Shown: one piece after another, positions 142 through 35,872 of the stretch
Layout of the letters: each line of letters starts with the position of its first letter
How positions within the stretch are numbered: the first letter of the stretch is position 1
Source: an uncultured Clostridia bacterium
GTDB taxonomy: Bacteria > Bacillota > Clostridia > Oscillospirales > Ruminococcaceae
Reading direction: 5' to 3'
Assembly (NCBI GenBank): GCA_947624375.1
Contig: CANQKD010000014.1
Span: 1 to 64,000 of the forward strand
DNA length: 64,000 nt
Notes under the pieces: generated by a model
What the model was told of the DNA's origin: nothing
Seen by the model: the letters and a program-made list of their open reading frames with translations, nothing else
Database searches by the model: none
Program-made: the position numbers and the translations under genes

Positions 142-235
142 AGAAAAAGGAGTGCCGGCTATGTACGATAGCGGCTAGCTCCCTAATGTATTGGTTTAGT
201 AACCGCAACGTTTTAGGGGCGTGCGGTTACTTTTT
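142..235 (+). ncRNA. Antisense (antitoxin) RNA of module A
   Basis: Predicted RNA of about 95 bases starting 6-7 bases after its TATAAT box. It begins with a hairpin (GGAG-U-GCCG ... CGGC-UAG-CUCC) whose loop carries the self-complementary GUAC. It ends in a perfect 10-bp terminator stem, AGTAACCGCA (198-207) with TGCGGTTACT (222-231), followed by T5. The RNA overlaps the end of the convergent peptide gene, whose stop codon lies just past the T run. This is inferred from sequence and from conservation with four other copies; there is no transcript evidence. Confidence 0.65.
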
Positions 236-239
236 ATTG

Positions 240-305
240 CTATTGATAATATCTCTGATAAGTATCAATAGCAATAATTACTAATATCAATGTGGTATTA
301 TCCAT
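240..305 (-). CDS. Small hydrophobic peptide, module A (candidate type I toxin, 21 aa)
   Basis: A 21-residue peptide starting MDNTTLILVIIAIDTY and ending RYYQ, with a hydrophobic stretch at about residues 5-13. It is the most divergent of five related peptide genes in the window, but promoter, leader and converging antisense RNA are all kept. The leader carries GCUCCC, which can pair with the GGGGGC forming its ribosome site. In the other copies the pair is CUCCC/GGGAG, so the change looks compensatory. Membrane insertion and toxicity are assumed by analogy with Fst/TxpA-type peptides. The short core and polar C-terminus may mean a weakened or dead copy. Confidence 0.5.
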   Translation of the reverse strand: MDNTTLILVIIAIDTYQRYYQ

Positions 306-14725: not shown

Positions 14726-14814
14726 AGAAAAGGAGTGCCGACTTAGACTAAGCGGTTGTCTCCCAAATGAACAGTAAAAATAACCGTCAGATTAGAGGCC
14801 TGCGGTTATTTTTT
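14726..14814 (+). ncRNA. Antisense (antitoxin) RNA of module B
   Basis: Predicted RNA of about 90 bases. The 5' hairpin GGAG-U-GCCG ... CGGU-UGU-CUCC matches the other copies, but its loop is UUAGACUAA instead of a GUAC loop. The convergent peptide mRNA has a matching change (UGGACUA), leaving six of seven possible loop-loop pairs. It ends in the terminator AAATAACCG/CGGTTATTTT (14778-14814), which covers the stop codon of the peptide gene. Confidence 0.65.
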
Positions 14815-14907
14815 GTTAATGTTCTTTATTATCTCGCTTATGATCGCGAAGATCACAGCGAAGACTAATGAAAGAATGATAGCCAGAACTACATAAAGTA
14901 TTTCCAT
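14806..14907 (-). CDS. Small hydrophobic peptide, module B (candidate type I toxin, 33 aa)
   Basis: A 33-residue peptide, MEILYVVLAIILSLVFAVIF followed by a polar, Lys-ending tail IISEIIKNINKK. It has a single membrane helix at residues 3-24 and a charged tail, the layout of Fst, TxpA and BsrG toxins. AAGGAGGG lies 7 bases before the ATG, a strong ribosome site. The leader has CCCUC, which can pair with GAGGG of that site. The promoter (TTGACA-18-TATAAT) and converging antisense RNA match the four other modules, but the peptide is unlike theirs, so the control region appears to have been combined with a different peptide. Confidence 0.6.
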   Translation of the reverse strand: MEILYVVLAIILSLVFAVIFAIISEIIKNINKK

Positions 14908-15039: not shown

Positions 15040-15069
15040 ATTATAACATATCCTGTCGGTATATGTCAA
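15040..15069 (-). promoter_or_regulatory. Promoter of peptide mRNA, module B
   Basis: Minus strand: TTGACA (15069-15064), 18-base spacer, TATAAT (15045-15040). The transcript begins with a leader of about 125 bases. Confidence 0.75.
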
Positions 15070-15177
15070 GCGGCGCGGCTGTGATGCAGCAAGAAAAAGT
15101 GTGCCACGTGGCACATCTGCACGATATACTTTCCGAAGAAAAAACTGTTGACAAATCATTTTAAGTGGTGTATAATA
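15056..15177. repeat. 122-base direct repeat, first copy
   Basis: This segment recurs 392 bases downstream at 15448-15569 with about eight mismatches by eye. Each copy runs from the -35 box of a minus-strand peptide promoter to the -10 box of the next plus-strand RNA promoter. Each holds a 14-base palindrome (GTGCCACGTGGCAC at 15101-15114, GTGCCACATGGCAC at 15493-15506). This marks a tandem duplication of whole modules; the palindrome could be an operator. Confidence 0.8.
15148..15176 (+). promoter_or_regulatory. Promoter of antisense RNA, module C
   Basis: TTGACA (15148-15153), 17-base spacer, TATAAT (15171-15176). Confidence 0.8.
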
Positions 15178-15182
15178 TAAAT

Positions 15183-15280
15183 AGAAAAAGGAGTGCCGAC
15201 TTAGTACGATAGCGGCTAGCTCCCAAAAGTTTTTGGTTTAAAGTAACCGCAACGTTTTGAGAGATGTGCGGTTACTTTCT
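15183..15280 (+). ncRNA. Antisense (antitoxin) RNA of module C
   Basis: Predicted RNA of about 98 bases with the 5' hairpin GGAG-U-GCCG ... CGGC-UAG-CUCC, GUAC in the loop, and an unpaired CCCAAAA downstream. The terminator stem is AGTAACCGCA/TGCGGTTACT (15242-15276), whose distal arm contains the reverse complement of the peptide stop codon. CUCCC in the RNA is complementary to GGGAG of the peptide ribosome site. Confidence 0.65.
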
Positions 15281-15346
15281 GTTATTCGTTATATTATCAA
15301 TGTAATATAGAATAATGATAATAAGTATCATGGTCAAATAATCCAT
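15272..15346 (-). CDS. Small hydrophobic peptide, module C (candidate type I toxin, 24 aa)
   Basis: A 24-residue peptide, MDYLTMILIIIILYYIDNIT then NNRK. It differs from the module E peptide only at position 6 (Met for Leu). A hydrophobic helix (residues 4-16) is followed by a polar, basic end. GGGAGGTGGG precedes the ATG by five bases and can be masked by CUCCC about 40 bases upstream, with an internal hairpin CCTCTGTCAGAGG between them. Near-identity across copies with many third-position changes suggests selection on the peptide. Confidence 0.62.
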   Translation of the reverse strand: MDYLTMILIIIILYYIDNITNNRK

Positions 15347-15431: not shown

Positions 15432-15461
15432 ATTATAGCATATTCCGACGGTATATGTCAA
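15432..15461 (-). promoter_or_regulatory. Promoter of peptide mRNA, module C
   Basis: Minus strand: TTGACA (15461-15456), 18-base spacer, TATAAT (15437-15432). Confidence 0.75.
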
Positions 15462-15569
15462 GCGGTGCGGCTCTGATGCAGCAAGCAAAAATGTGCCACA
15501 TGGCACACCTGCACGGTATACTTTCCGAAGAAAAAACTGTTGACAAATCATTTTAAGTGGTGTATAATA
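15448..15569. repeat. 122-base direct repeat, second copy
   Basis: Second copy of the segment at 15056-15177. It places a further antisense-type promoter at 15540-15568, facing the 3' end of the HipA-like gene. Confidence 0.8.
15540..15568 (+). promoter_or_regulatory. Third antisense-type promoter, facing the HipA-like gene
   Basis: TTGACA (15540-15545), 17-base spacer, TATAAT (15563-15568), identical over more than 40 bases to the module C RNA promoter. The transcribed sequence after it is different. Confidence 0.75.
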
Positions 15570-15574
15570 AAGGC

Positions 15575-15668
15575 AGAAAGAAGCATATCGGTTGCTTACT
15601 TTCTGTGGTTATTTTTTTATGTGTTTGAGAGCAAAGAGATGGTTGTTATTAGTCATCTCTTTGTTTTT
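15575..15668 (+). ncRNA. Candidate antisense RNA converging on the HipA-like gene
   Basis: From this promoter a transcript would first form CAGAAAG-A-AGCA / TGCT-TA-CTTTCTG (15573-15604), with T7 at about 15612-15618. If it reads on, it meets CAAAGAGATG/CATCTCTTTG (15632-15664) with a T5 tail. The second hairpin covers the stop codon of the HipA-like gene, as the terminators of modules A-E cover their peptide stop codons. The RNA is unrelated in sequence to the other antisense RNAs after the -10 box. It may be a regulator of the kinase gene or simply a relic of the duplication. Confidence 0.45.
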
Positions 15669-16861
15669 GATACATTTATTCCGTTGTATAGTTCTGTTCG
15701 CAGAGCATTATCAAGCATCTTTATTCTATCGCCCAGCAGCTCTGCTATTACCTTTACCCTGTCAGCATATCTGTAATTGCTTTTATAAAACATATCAGCT
15801 GCTTCTTCGGGCAGATCGCGCAGCTTTGAAAGCTCATACCTTTGCGGACAAGTTACAAGTTTTATCTGCTCACTGTGCAGCTTTGCAAAAGGCTTTCCGC
15901 ACGGTATGTCGGCTTTTGTATCGATGTAATTTGTATCCTCGTTGTATCTCAGACTTCTGCCGCTGTCAAACAGGGGTGCAAAACCCGTATATTCAAGAGT
16001 ATTTACATCTCGTACCGCGCCGAAATTGTTGTAATGACGATCCTCATTCCCCATAATAAAATCAACGACTATCATATCGTCAATACTTTTTTCATAGCCG
16101 GGAATGTGCAACATCTTGCAGGTGTTCTTGAAAAGCTCATACTTTGACACGCGCTGATCGTTATAATAATACTTATTAAGTATCGCTTTGGCAGGAACAA
16201 GCTCTGTGTTCTCGTCAATAAAACACTTGCACCTGCAATGGCTCTCACCGTTTTTTGTATACGCAAAATACTCGGTATGATCTATGTTCAGACGTCTGCA
16301 TATCATAGAGGCGATCTCTTCGTTGAAAGCCTCCTGCTGATAAGGCGGAGTGCTTGCCTTTATAAGATACCTGTCACCGTTTTCAACTATCCACTTTTTT
16401 GACAAATAACCTGCGGCAGAAATATCCGGCGACATAAGGCTCGGAGTGTCCACTTGTGTTCTGTCGAACATTATTCTGCCAACGTCGAGAGAAAAATCAT
16501 TTGTAAAGTAATTGACGGTGTCCCACGAAAGTCCGCTGCCGCTCTGGCATATCCAGTATTGATCGGAGAGAGACAAAAAATAATTTTGCTTGGCAAGCTG
16601 AGTCACAGAGACCTCATTGCCAACAGACTCTTGCATAACTTCCATGCTCTTTTGAAGATCCTGCCTGCTTGCCGGAATATTTCTGGACGAAAGCCATGCG
16701 GAAAAGCTGTTTATATCAACTACGCCGTCGTCAATTGCCAGTTCAGGGGGCGCATACTCTGAATTAAACACGTCGATAATACGATCCACGGAAAAGCCCG
16801 TGCTTCCGATCGTTTCAAATTCTAACACTTCTGTTCTTTTGTTCATCAGCAAATAACGCAT
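15653..16861 (-). CDS. HipA-like serine/threonine kinase
   Basis: A 402-residue protein whose C-terminal half is a HipA-type kinase. The ATP-site lysine is probably in RYLIKAS, the catalytic loop is DFIMGNEDRHYNNFG, and the metal-binding motif is PLFDSGRSL. The N-terminal half (about 1-130) is poorly conserved. HipA kinases phosphorylate tRNA synthetases or other targets and usually pair with a HipB DNA-binding antitoxin; none is next to this gene. GGGAGGCG precedes the ATG. Its promoter and convergent RNA promoter have the layout of the peptide toxin modules upstream. Confidence 0.85.
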   Translation of the reverse strand: MRYLLMNKRTEVLEFETIGSTGFSVDRIIDVFNSEYAPPELAIDDGVVDINSFSAWLSSRNIPASRQDLQKSMEVMQESVGNEVSVTQLAKQNYFLSLSDQYWICQSGSGLSWDTVNYFTNDFSLDVGRIMFDRTQVDTPSLMSPDISAAGYLSKKWIVENGDRYLIKASTPPYQQEAFNEEIASMICRRLNIDHTEYFAYTKNGESHCRCKCFIDENTELVPAKAILNKYYYNDQRVSKYELFKNTCKMLHIPGYEKSIDDMIVVDFIMGNEDRHYNNFGAVRDVNTLEYTGFAPLFDSGRSLRYNEDTNYIDTKADIPCGKPFAKLHSEQIKLVTCPQRYELSKLRDLPEEAADMFYKSNYRYADRVKVIAELLGDRIKMLDNALRTELYNGINVSKTKR

Positions 16862-20698: not shown

Positions 20699-20728
20699 TT
20701 GACATTTCTCGACAGGATATGCTATAAT
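20699..20728 (+). promoter_or_regulatory. Promoter of peptide mRNA, module D
   Basis: TTGACA (20699-20704), 18-base spacer, TATAAT (20723-20728). Confidence 0.78.
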
Positions 20729-20770
20729 ATTCTTGTGCCGGTAAGGTACGAAACGGAAAAGCAGGCAACA

Positions 20771-20868
20771 GCGTCTTCTTGCGAAGACGCTTGTAAGTTT
20801 TATTTCGCCGACAAAAGGTCGGCGATTTTTGTGCGACTTCATAGAAGTCGCTTAAAACCATAAAACTT
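20771..20868. repeat. Three-hairpin insert in the leader of module D
   Basis: Absent from the other modules. Holds GCGTCTTC/GAAGACGC (20771-20790), CGCCGAC/GTCGGCG (20806-20824) and GCGACTTC/GAAGTCGC (20833-20851). The last two lie between AAGTTTTAT (20795-20803) and its inverse ATAAAACTT (20860-20868). Confidence 0.75.
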
Positions 20869-20914
20869 CCCCTCCCATTCCCCCTCGGTCAGAGGTAGGA
20901 GGGAGGTGGGTTTA

Positions 20915-20989
20915 ATGGACTATTTGACGTTAATACTCATAATTATTATTCTGTATTACATAGATGATATCACGAATAATAAAAAATAA
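20915..20989 (+). CDS. Small hydrophobic peptide, module D (candidate type I toxin, 24 aa)
   Basis: A 24-residue peptide, MDYLTLILIIIILYYIDDIT then NNKK. It differs from module E at Asn18 to Asp and Arg23 to Lys, while several synonymous positions also differ. GGGAGGTGGG precedes the ATG. The leader is lengthened by the three-hairpin insert but still ends with CCCCTCCC upstream, able to pair with the ribosome site, around the CCTCGGTCAGAGG hairpin. Confidence 0.6.
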   Translation: MDYLTLILIIIILYYIDDITNNKK

Positions 20990-21075
20990 CCGCCAGATCT
21001 CAAACTAAACGGTTATTTTTATAACTTAAAGTCTGGGAGATAGCCGCTATCGTACTAAGCCGACACTCCTTTTCT
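20981..21075 (-). ncRNA. Antisense (antitoxin) RNA of module D
   Basis: Predicted minus-strand RNA of about 95 bases. The 5' hairpin has GUAC in its loop, as in modules A, C and E. The terminator AAAAATAACCG/CGGTTATTTTT (20982-21020) overlaps the peptide stop codon and ends in T6. Confidence 0.62.
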
Positions 21076-21081
21076 ATTTAT

Positions 21082-21110
21082 ATTATACACCATGAAAGAA
21101 TATTTGTCAA
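21082..21110 (-). promoter_or_regulatory. Promoter of antisense RNA, module D
   Basis: Minus strand: TTGACA (21110-21105), 17-base spacer, TATAAT (21087-21082). Confidence 0.8.
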
Positions 21111-21133
21111 GTGGTTTTGGAAAACCGCCTGCC

Positions 21134-21163
21134 TTGACATTTCCCGACGGGATATGTTATAAT
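21134..21163 (+). promoter_or_regulatory. Promoter of peptide mRNA, module E
   Basis: TTGACA (21134-21139), 18-base spacer, TATAAT (21158-21163). Confidence 0.8.
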
Positions 21164-21247
21164 ATACTTGTGCCGGTAAGGTACGAAACGGAAAAGCGGC
21201 TATCTCCCTGATTCTCCTCTGTCAGAGGCAGAAGGGAGGTGGGTATT

Positions 21248-21322
21248 ATGGATTATTTGACCCTAATACTTATTATCATTATTCTGTATTACATTGATAA
21301 TATCACGAATAATAGAAAATAA
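21248..21322 (+). CDS. Small hydrophobic peptide, module E (candidate type I toxin, 24 aa)
   Basis: A 24-residue peptide, MDYLTLILIIIILYYIDNIT then NNRK: a short N-terminus, a 13-residue Leu/Ile helix and a polar, basic tail. The mRNA leader (about 21170-21247) starts GUGCCGGUAAGGUACGAAAC, similar to the start of the antisense RNA, then has CUCCC, the hairpin CCTCTGTCAGAGG and GGGAGGTGGG. CUCCC can pair with GGGAG and hide the ribosome site. This is the cleanest copy and a good reference for the family. Confidence 0.65.
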   Translation: MDYLTLILIIIILYYIDNITNNRK

Positions 21323-21410
21323 CCGCACAGCCTACCAAGATGTCGCGGTTATTTAACTAAAGCGTTTTGGGAGCTAGCCGCTATCGTACTAAGCCGGCAC
21401 TCCTTTTTCT
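21316..21410 (-). ncRNA. Antisense (antitoxin) RNA of module E
   Basis: Predicted minus-strand RNA of about 95 bases with 5' GGAG-U-GCCG ... CGGC-UAG-CUCC and a GUAC loop. The terminator AAATAACCGC/GCGGTTATTT (21317-21354) is shared with the peptide mRNA. Confidence 0.65.
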
Positions 21411-21416
21411 ATTTAT

Positions 21417-21445
21417 ATTATACACCATGAAAAAATATTTGTCAA
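21417..21445 (-). promoter_or_regulatory. Promoter of antisense RNA, module E
   Basis: Minus strand: TTGACA (21445-21440), 17-base spacer, TATAAT (21422-21417). Confidence 0.8.
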
Positions 21446-35770: not shown

Positions 35771-35872
35771 AATTTTATACCTATAAAGAGTGCGCGAGGG
35801 ACAAGCCCTGTGACCGCACAGCAACCTGCGTTTGCAAGGTGCTAAAGCTTGTACGATGGGGAATAAGCAAAT
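35771..35872 (+). ncRNA. S-box (SAM-I)-like riboswitch aptamer
   Basis: The core matches SAM-I: P2 GTGCG (35790-35794) with CGCAC (35815-35819) enclosing GAGGGACAAGCCC, then GCAACC, P3 CCTGC/GCAAGG and the invariant AAGGTGCTAA, ending in GAATAAG as the 3' arm of P1. The P4 region is unusually short. A terminator follows directly, so an OFF switch on ligand binding is likely. The gene it controls is not a known SAM or methionine gene. Confidence 0.65.

Follow-up and report, generated by a model that had tools for sequence, protein, structure and literature searches.

Positions 20699-21445 of the window (the whole analysed stretch of 64,000 nucleotides from an uncultured Clostridia bacterium) contain two adjoining modules, D and E. 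In each of them a hydrophobic peptide gene is opposed by an antisense RNA gene, which is the generic layout of a type I toxin-antitoxin system. On comparative sequence evidence, these modules probably belong to a large, apparently undescribed type I toxin-antitoxin family, which is unusually expanded and has an architecture akin to Fst/RNAII and TxpA/RatA. A literature search, made largely in papers accessible without subscription, returned no description of the module family. The first-pass annotation of the window had already suggested a system like type I toxin-antitoxin modules, and this reading gains support from the comparative data on selection, on the asymmetry between orphan antisense genes and orphan toxins, on the terminator loops, on the predicted SD pairing in cis and on relatives with Hol_Tox- and PepG1-like peptides.

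Layout of the modules in the window

Modules D and E are each bounded by inward-facing perfect TTGACA/TATAAT promoters of the sigma-70 type, one on each side. Such promoter-like sites were observed 16 times, compared with 2.6 expected. Both ORFs consist of 24 codons and are preceded by a strong SD. The stem of D (AAAAATAACCG/CGGTTATTTTT) is perfect, encloses the stop codon and is flanked by T-runs on both strands; the stem-loop of E likewise spans the stop codon, with a T-run on either strand. The features of the two modules are as follows.

20699..20728, plus strand: toxin (sense) promoter of D, TTGACA-N18-TATAAT, 12/12 match
20735..20914, plus strand: sense leader of D with 5' shared segment, 108-nt insert and predicted SD-sequestering hairpin
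20764..20872, plus strand: 108-nt leader insert of D, with an intrinsic terminator inside (20805-20825)
20915..20989, plus strand: peptide of D, MDYLTLILIIIILYYIDDITNNKK
20982..21020, unstranded: bidirectional terminator of D, perfect 11-bp stem with the TAA stop inside (stem, T-runs, covariation)
20982..21076, minus strand: antisense RNA of D, predicted antitoxin (covariance model, 86.6 bits)
21031..21066, plus strand: 5' shared segment of D in inverted form; in the long mRNA, predicted 3' arm of the fold-back (5' arm 20735-20766)
21082..21110, minus strand: antisense promoter of D, TTGACA-N17-TATAAT
21134..21163, plus strand: toxin promoter of E
21170..21208, plus strand: 5' shared segment of E, predicted 5' arm of the fold-back (28 bp with 21369-21400)
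21248..21322, plus strand: peptide of E, MDYLTLILIIIILYYIDNITNNRK
21317..21354, unstranded: bidirectional terminator of E (stem, T-runs, covariation)
21316..21410, minus strand: antisense RNA of E (covariance model, 91.4 bits)
21369..21409, plus strand: 3' arm of E, reverse complement of the antisense RNA start, with a T-run behind it; candidate second terminator of the sense RNA
21417..21445, minus strand: antisense promoter of E

The 108-nt insert in the leader of D, with its own intrinsic terminator, had not been recorded in the first-pass annotation. It is present in 8 copies in the genome, which are 85-98% identical and all located in module leaders (the other seven in C13, in C5 four times and in C6 twice), and it carries hairpins and the intrinsic terminator 5' of the toxin ORF. 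Possibly, this leader cassette acts as an attenuator. In another genus (L110), leaders contain cassettes of similar frame (AGTTTTGT...ACAAAACT).

Three further modules, A, B and C, are located elsewhere in the window.

142..234, plus strand: antisense RNA of A, intact (covariance model, 90.3 bits)
240..305, minus strand: frameshifted toxin remnant of A (MDNTTLILVIIAIDTYQRYYQ)
14726..14813, plus strand: antisense RNA of B, RNA type II (covariance model)
14806..14907, minus strand: peptide of B, MEILYVVLAIILSLVFAVIFAIISEIIKNINKK
15040..15069, minus strand: toxin promoter of B
15183..15279, plus strand: antisense RNA of C (covariance model, 99.1 bits)
15272..15346, minus strand: peptide of C, MDYLTMILIIIILYYIDNITNNRK
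15432..15461, minus strand: toxin promoter of C

Modules B and C follow the design of D and E on the opposite strand. The peptides of C, D and E are nearly identical and their genes differ at synonymous sites, as had been noted before. All five modules had been described as one design, with a peptide gene of 21-33 residues facing an antisense RNA of about 95 bases and a terminator stem covering the peptide stop codon. This description holds for the intact modules B to E and fails for A, whose 21-residue ORF is the frameshifted rest of a MDNITLIL...DDIINKNNKK toxin. The tail LILIRDIINSNKK is encoded in a different frame, and the terminator stem does not include the stop codon. Module A is a relic and no working member of the family. 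Around module C, a stretch that includes the antisense promoter of this module is duplicated in tandem (15070-15180 and 15464-15570), and the second duplicate (TTGACA...TATAATAAAGG) now precedes unrelated sequence. Beside modules B and C, a 402-aa protein is encoded at 15656-16861 on the minus strand, which shows a sub-threshold match to HipA_C (E 3.3e-5, below the cut-off). The window also contains an ordinary SAM riboswitch (Rfam RF00162) at 35778-35862 on the plus strand.

Copy number, peptide selection and distribution of the family

The family had been taken to comprise five copies. In the 2.35-Mb genome, dozens of partial copies were first seen by DNA similarity, and a motif search then revealed 36 antisense genes, 35 of which were aligned to build the covariance model R1. 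The search of the own genome with R1 gave 36 places, a number which may be an undercount because several of the clusters reach contig ends; tandem clusters of modules are present. With a peptide profile, 33 intact ORFs were identified, each adjoining one of the 36 antisense genes. Thus, no orphan toxin ORF was found, but three antisense genes have no intact toxin (A, C23:8674 and C7:49061). This is the pattern that addiction would predict, three cases being few. At L016 3985-5770 (G000:C23), the end of a large serine recombinase-like gene adjoins a module whose toxin retains only its last residues (DLINEIIKNMKK), possibly owing to the insertion of an element into the toxin gene at this place.

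The peptides of the family are hydrophobic and comprise 20-33 residues. For eight peptide groups from modules across the genus, pN/pS values of 0.037-0.232 were obtained, with pS reaching up to 0.46. By this comparison of sequences, the peptide is translated and under strong purifying selection. The statement that the window peptides match no named family was confirmed, as they gave nothing above the Pfam and NCBIfam cut-offs and the window RNAs had no Rfam match at the gathering score. A comparison with solved structures returned no match to the window peptides either. Against Hol_Tox (PF16935), the own peptides stayed below the Pfam gathering score (best E 0.087). A comparison of 66 mixed peptides, most of them from relatives, gave 13 Hol_Tox matches at E<=0.1 (best 1.3e-5), 4 matches to ComI and 2 to PepG1. 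The window peptides align with a short MEYIALILIIVLYTIVEIKK-like set from other genera (hhalign 95%, E 3e-8); their homology to the Hol_Tox-like set was rejected at an hhalign probability of 19%. In relatives, one antisense scaffold faces several kinds of peptide. In the own genome, MDIATAV peptides occur on RNA types I and II, so that scaffolds exchange their toxins.

Within the genus, R1 modules were found in 7 of 10 genomes, six of which contain 11-36 copies. Their presence is patchy, and the genus genomes G002, G003 and G004 have no copy at E<=0.01. The first-pass annotation had suggested a covariance-model search of related genomes, and this search, run with the antisense RNAs, revealed relatives in 49 of the 126 sampled genera of the family (111/397 genomes, E<=1e-3) and in 39 of the 168 sampled genera of the order (63/394 genomes, E<=1e-4), where the R1 E-values are rough because the calibration was short. 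In a sample of the phylum, 10 of 398 genomes gave an R1 match, some of them outside the order. Among the matches in other genera, 83 of 102 face an SD-led ORF with a hydrophobic core and a basic (K/R) tail which ends at the terminator, whereas the same ORF test at random positions of the same loci was positive in 4.4%. At one locus of another genus (L070 1365-1584), tandem antisense-like genes are present, one of which has no opposing toxin ORF that was found; these genes are possible orphan antitoxins. The DNA pattern of the RNA type I antisense gene matches only rabbit-gut ("Lapin") assemblies of uncultured Clostridia in the named collection searched. Plasmid and phage collections contained no match to a window module or to the B peptide, and no viral contig carried the window types. 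Five virus-classed contigs carry relatives with other peptide types.

Terminator loops, shared 5' ends and the predicted fold-back mRNA

The sense and antisense RNAs overlap at the terminator stem-loop only, and the structure of the antisense RNA is conserved. The loops of these terminators are highly variable, with 29 distinct loops among 31. In the antisense RNA, the loop contains the YUNR motif in 28 of 29 cases (21.4 in shuffles) and in 78 of 82 cases (58.8 in shuffles), respectively. The loop duplex energy is -27.6 kcal/mol for cognate and -7.8 kcal/mol for non-cognate pairs, although cognate complementarity is trivial because both RNAs share the same DNA. The informative part is the loop variability between paralogs. 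In addition, the SD is predicted to be sequestered in cis by the 5' stem-loop of the leader. Over the family as a whole, this pairing shows cognate specificity (z -5.9), with the contrast being absent within the own genome, probably because all leaders are alike there. Pairing of the antisense 5' domain with the SD in trans is weakly cognate-specific (z about -2). Several other contacts were considered and rejected: direct pairing between the sense and antisense 5' domains shows no cognate preference (-24.8 vs -24.1), stem-swap pairing between a sense arm and an antisense arm is not cognate-specific, and kissing via a GUAC loop palindrome does not agree with the type II RNAs, in which the palindrome is lost.

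At their 5' ends, both RNAs of one module carry the same sequence in identical orientation, which the first-pass annotation had not described. Over 72 modules, the alignment score of the two 5' ends is 19.4 compared with 13.1 (permutation p<0.001), and as reverse complement it is barely over chance (12.2 vs 11.4); shared ancestry inflates every permutation test. Within the own genome, both 5' ends of a module agree in RNA type in all 32 of 32 modules and in a variable dinucleotide in 28 of 32 (10.4 expected). On the sense strand, these two copies flank the whole gene as an inverted repeat, and therefore a toxin mRNA produced by read-through would close end to end. Assuming read-through to the antisense start, a closure of at least 10 bp is predicted for 82 of 87 long mRNAs. 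The mean helix comprises 24 bp, compared with 14.5 bp when the 3' ends are swapped, in which case the mRNAs still close. Double changes that keep the pairing are overrepresented (362 vs 200+-16). For G-U polarity, significance was reached in pairwise alignments but not in a multiple alignment (164 vs 139), which is noisy and from which systematic columns were removed. An A-tract is found at the antisense start only (85% A compared with 36% at the sense start). On the sense strand, it forms a T-run after a hairpin and is a possible second terminator. The U-tract of the shared terminator is stronger in the antisense direction (89:0 and 26:1) and weaker in the sense direction, where it should be considered that the antisense U-tracts partly reflect the Lys codons of the toxin.

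From these data we tentatively propose a long toxin mRNA folded back at its ends, to which we give somewhat less than an even chance. A type I system without any fold-back, in which the 5' likeness results from gene conversion, inverted duplication or the need of both RNAs for a protective 5' hairpin, is a real possibility, with a probability below one half. It agrees with the observation that the dinucleotide variants track the genomic cluster, being common to the modules of one cluster, and that the arms of the antisense 5' hairpin co-vary within the antisense RNA itself (z -3.3). However, the likeness ends at the transcript start, the sense and antisense promoters have different spacers, and positions which are unpaired in the hairpin match as well. 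Moreover, the T-run is present on the sense side only, and 95 of 105 modules have a more stable helix on the sense strand than on the opposite one, compared with 73% in non-cognates (-39.1 vs -34.0 kcal/mol). Part of the fold-back signal is nevertheless shared ancestry or local homogenisation.

Two other explanations concern the nature of the modules as a whole. The peptide could be a non-toxic regulatory membrane micropeptide whose level is tuned by the antisense RNA, and its strong conservation would equally fit a beneficial peptide. We consider this unlikely in view of the high copy number, the hypervariable loops, the existence of orphan antisense genes but not of orphan peptides, the three genus genomes that live without modules and the resemblance of the relatives to Hol_Tox and PepG1 toxins. 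The inverted repeats at both ends, the many copies and the tandem clusters are also reminiscent of MITE-like mobile elements, in which the ends would be terminal inverted repeats and the ORF and promoters passengers. This explanation is highly improbable, as the repeats start at the transcript starts and not at the outer ends, the ORF is under purifying selection and the co-variation is module-specific with no common terminal inverted repeat.

Proposed mechanism and comparison with known systems

For the type I toxin-antitoxin reading, the following mechanism can be proposed. The strong sense promoter would drive an mRNA that encodes a small membrane peptide with a hydrophobic stretch and a Lys/Asn tail, and the convergent promoter an antisense RNA of about 95 nt ending at the same stem-loop. 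The first contact would take place between the module-specific terminator loops, which are perfectly complementary, with the YUNR motif forming a U-turn in the antisense RNA, and the subsequent pairing would block translation and/or expose the duplex to RNase III, so that each antitoxin would silence its own toxin. With less confidence, we assume that the sense terminator is leaky and that some mRNAs reach the second T-run at the antisense start. Having complementary ends, these read-through mRNAs might adopt an inert conformation in which the 5' and 3' ends are closed, like those of hok and AapA1. After loss of a module or its antitoxin, the peptide would be made and damage the membrane, and we propose that the copies are therefore maintained as modules of addiction or abortive defence. 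The antisense gene might thereby have a double duty, encoding the antitoxin RNA while its complement provides the toxin mRNA with the 3' locking arm and a second terminator. The modules would then form an order-wide superfamily with a short mRNA and a self-closed inert long mRNA, a hybrid of the par and hok/AapA types with interchangeable toxins; we regard this complete model as nearly as probable as its contrary. Such a fold-back mRNA lock would be new for modules of this kind.

Type I systems are hard to detect by homology. R1 provides a searchable RNA model of a family which extends through an order of gut bacteria and reaches 36 copies in a single genome, and by this model cross-talk, copy-number burden and toxin swapping become testable questions. 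In addition, the family suggests one explicit new control mechanism.

The RNAs of TxpA/RatA and BsrG/SR4 of Bacillus subtilis are convergent and overlap at their 3' ends, as do the RNAs described here, where the overlap is restricted to the terminator stem-loop. The peptides BsrG and TxpA are Hol_Tox-like, whereas the window peptides stay under the Hol_Tox cut-off. Among the Clostridia, type I modules validated by experiment are those of Clostridioides difficile alone according to a review (PMC6563280). These CD-RCd modules consist of a hydrophobic toxin of 50-53 aa and a convergent antisense RNA with a long overlap (PMC6563280). The modules here are likewise convergent, encode a small hydrophobic predicted toxin and occur in Clostridia; the CD-RCd toxins and their overlap are longer.

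In hok and AapA1, a 5'-3' helix locks the full-length mRNA, which is activated by 3' trimming (PMC6733600). A long-distance 5'-3' closure of the toxin mRNA like that of hok/Sok and AapA1/IsoA1 is predicted for our modules in the case of read-through; no relation between the peptides was found. In our modules, the 5' end of the antisense gene would supply the closing 3' arm through its complement, at a place past the bidirectional terminator.

The par system (Fst/RNAII) of pAD1 has convergent promoters, a bidirectional terminator, a U-turn-type contact, a 5' stem-loop that hides the SD and a small membrane peptide (PMC7472228). Membership of our modules in the Fst family was rejected, since the PxxxG motif occurs in no peptide of the window or the own genome and since the second contact of par involves direct repeats, which give complementary RNAs, whereas the repeats here are inverted and give identical 5' sequences. 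Furthermore, the U-turn is found in the toxin RNA of par but is predicted in the antisense RNA here, and Fst/RNAII belongs to an Enterococcus plasmid, compared with up to 36 chromosomal copies in the present family. Both systems are alike in their convergent promoters and bidirectional terminator, which were found here, and in the sequestration of the SD by the 5' stem-loop of the toxin RNA, which is predicted for our modules.
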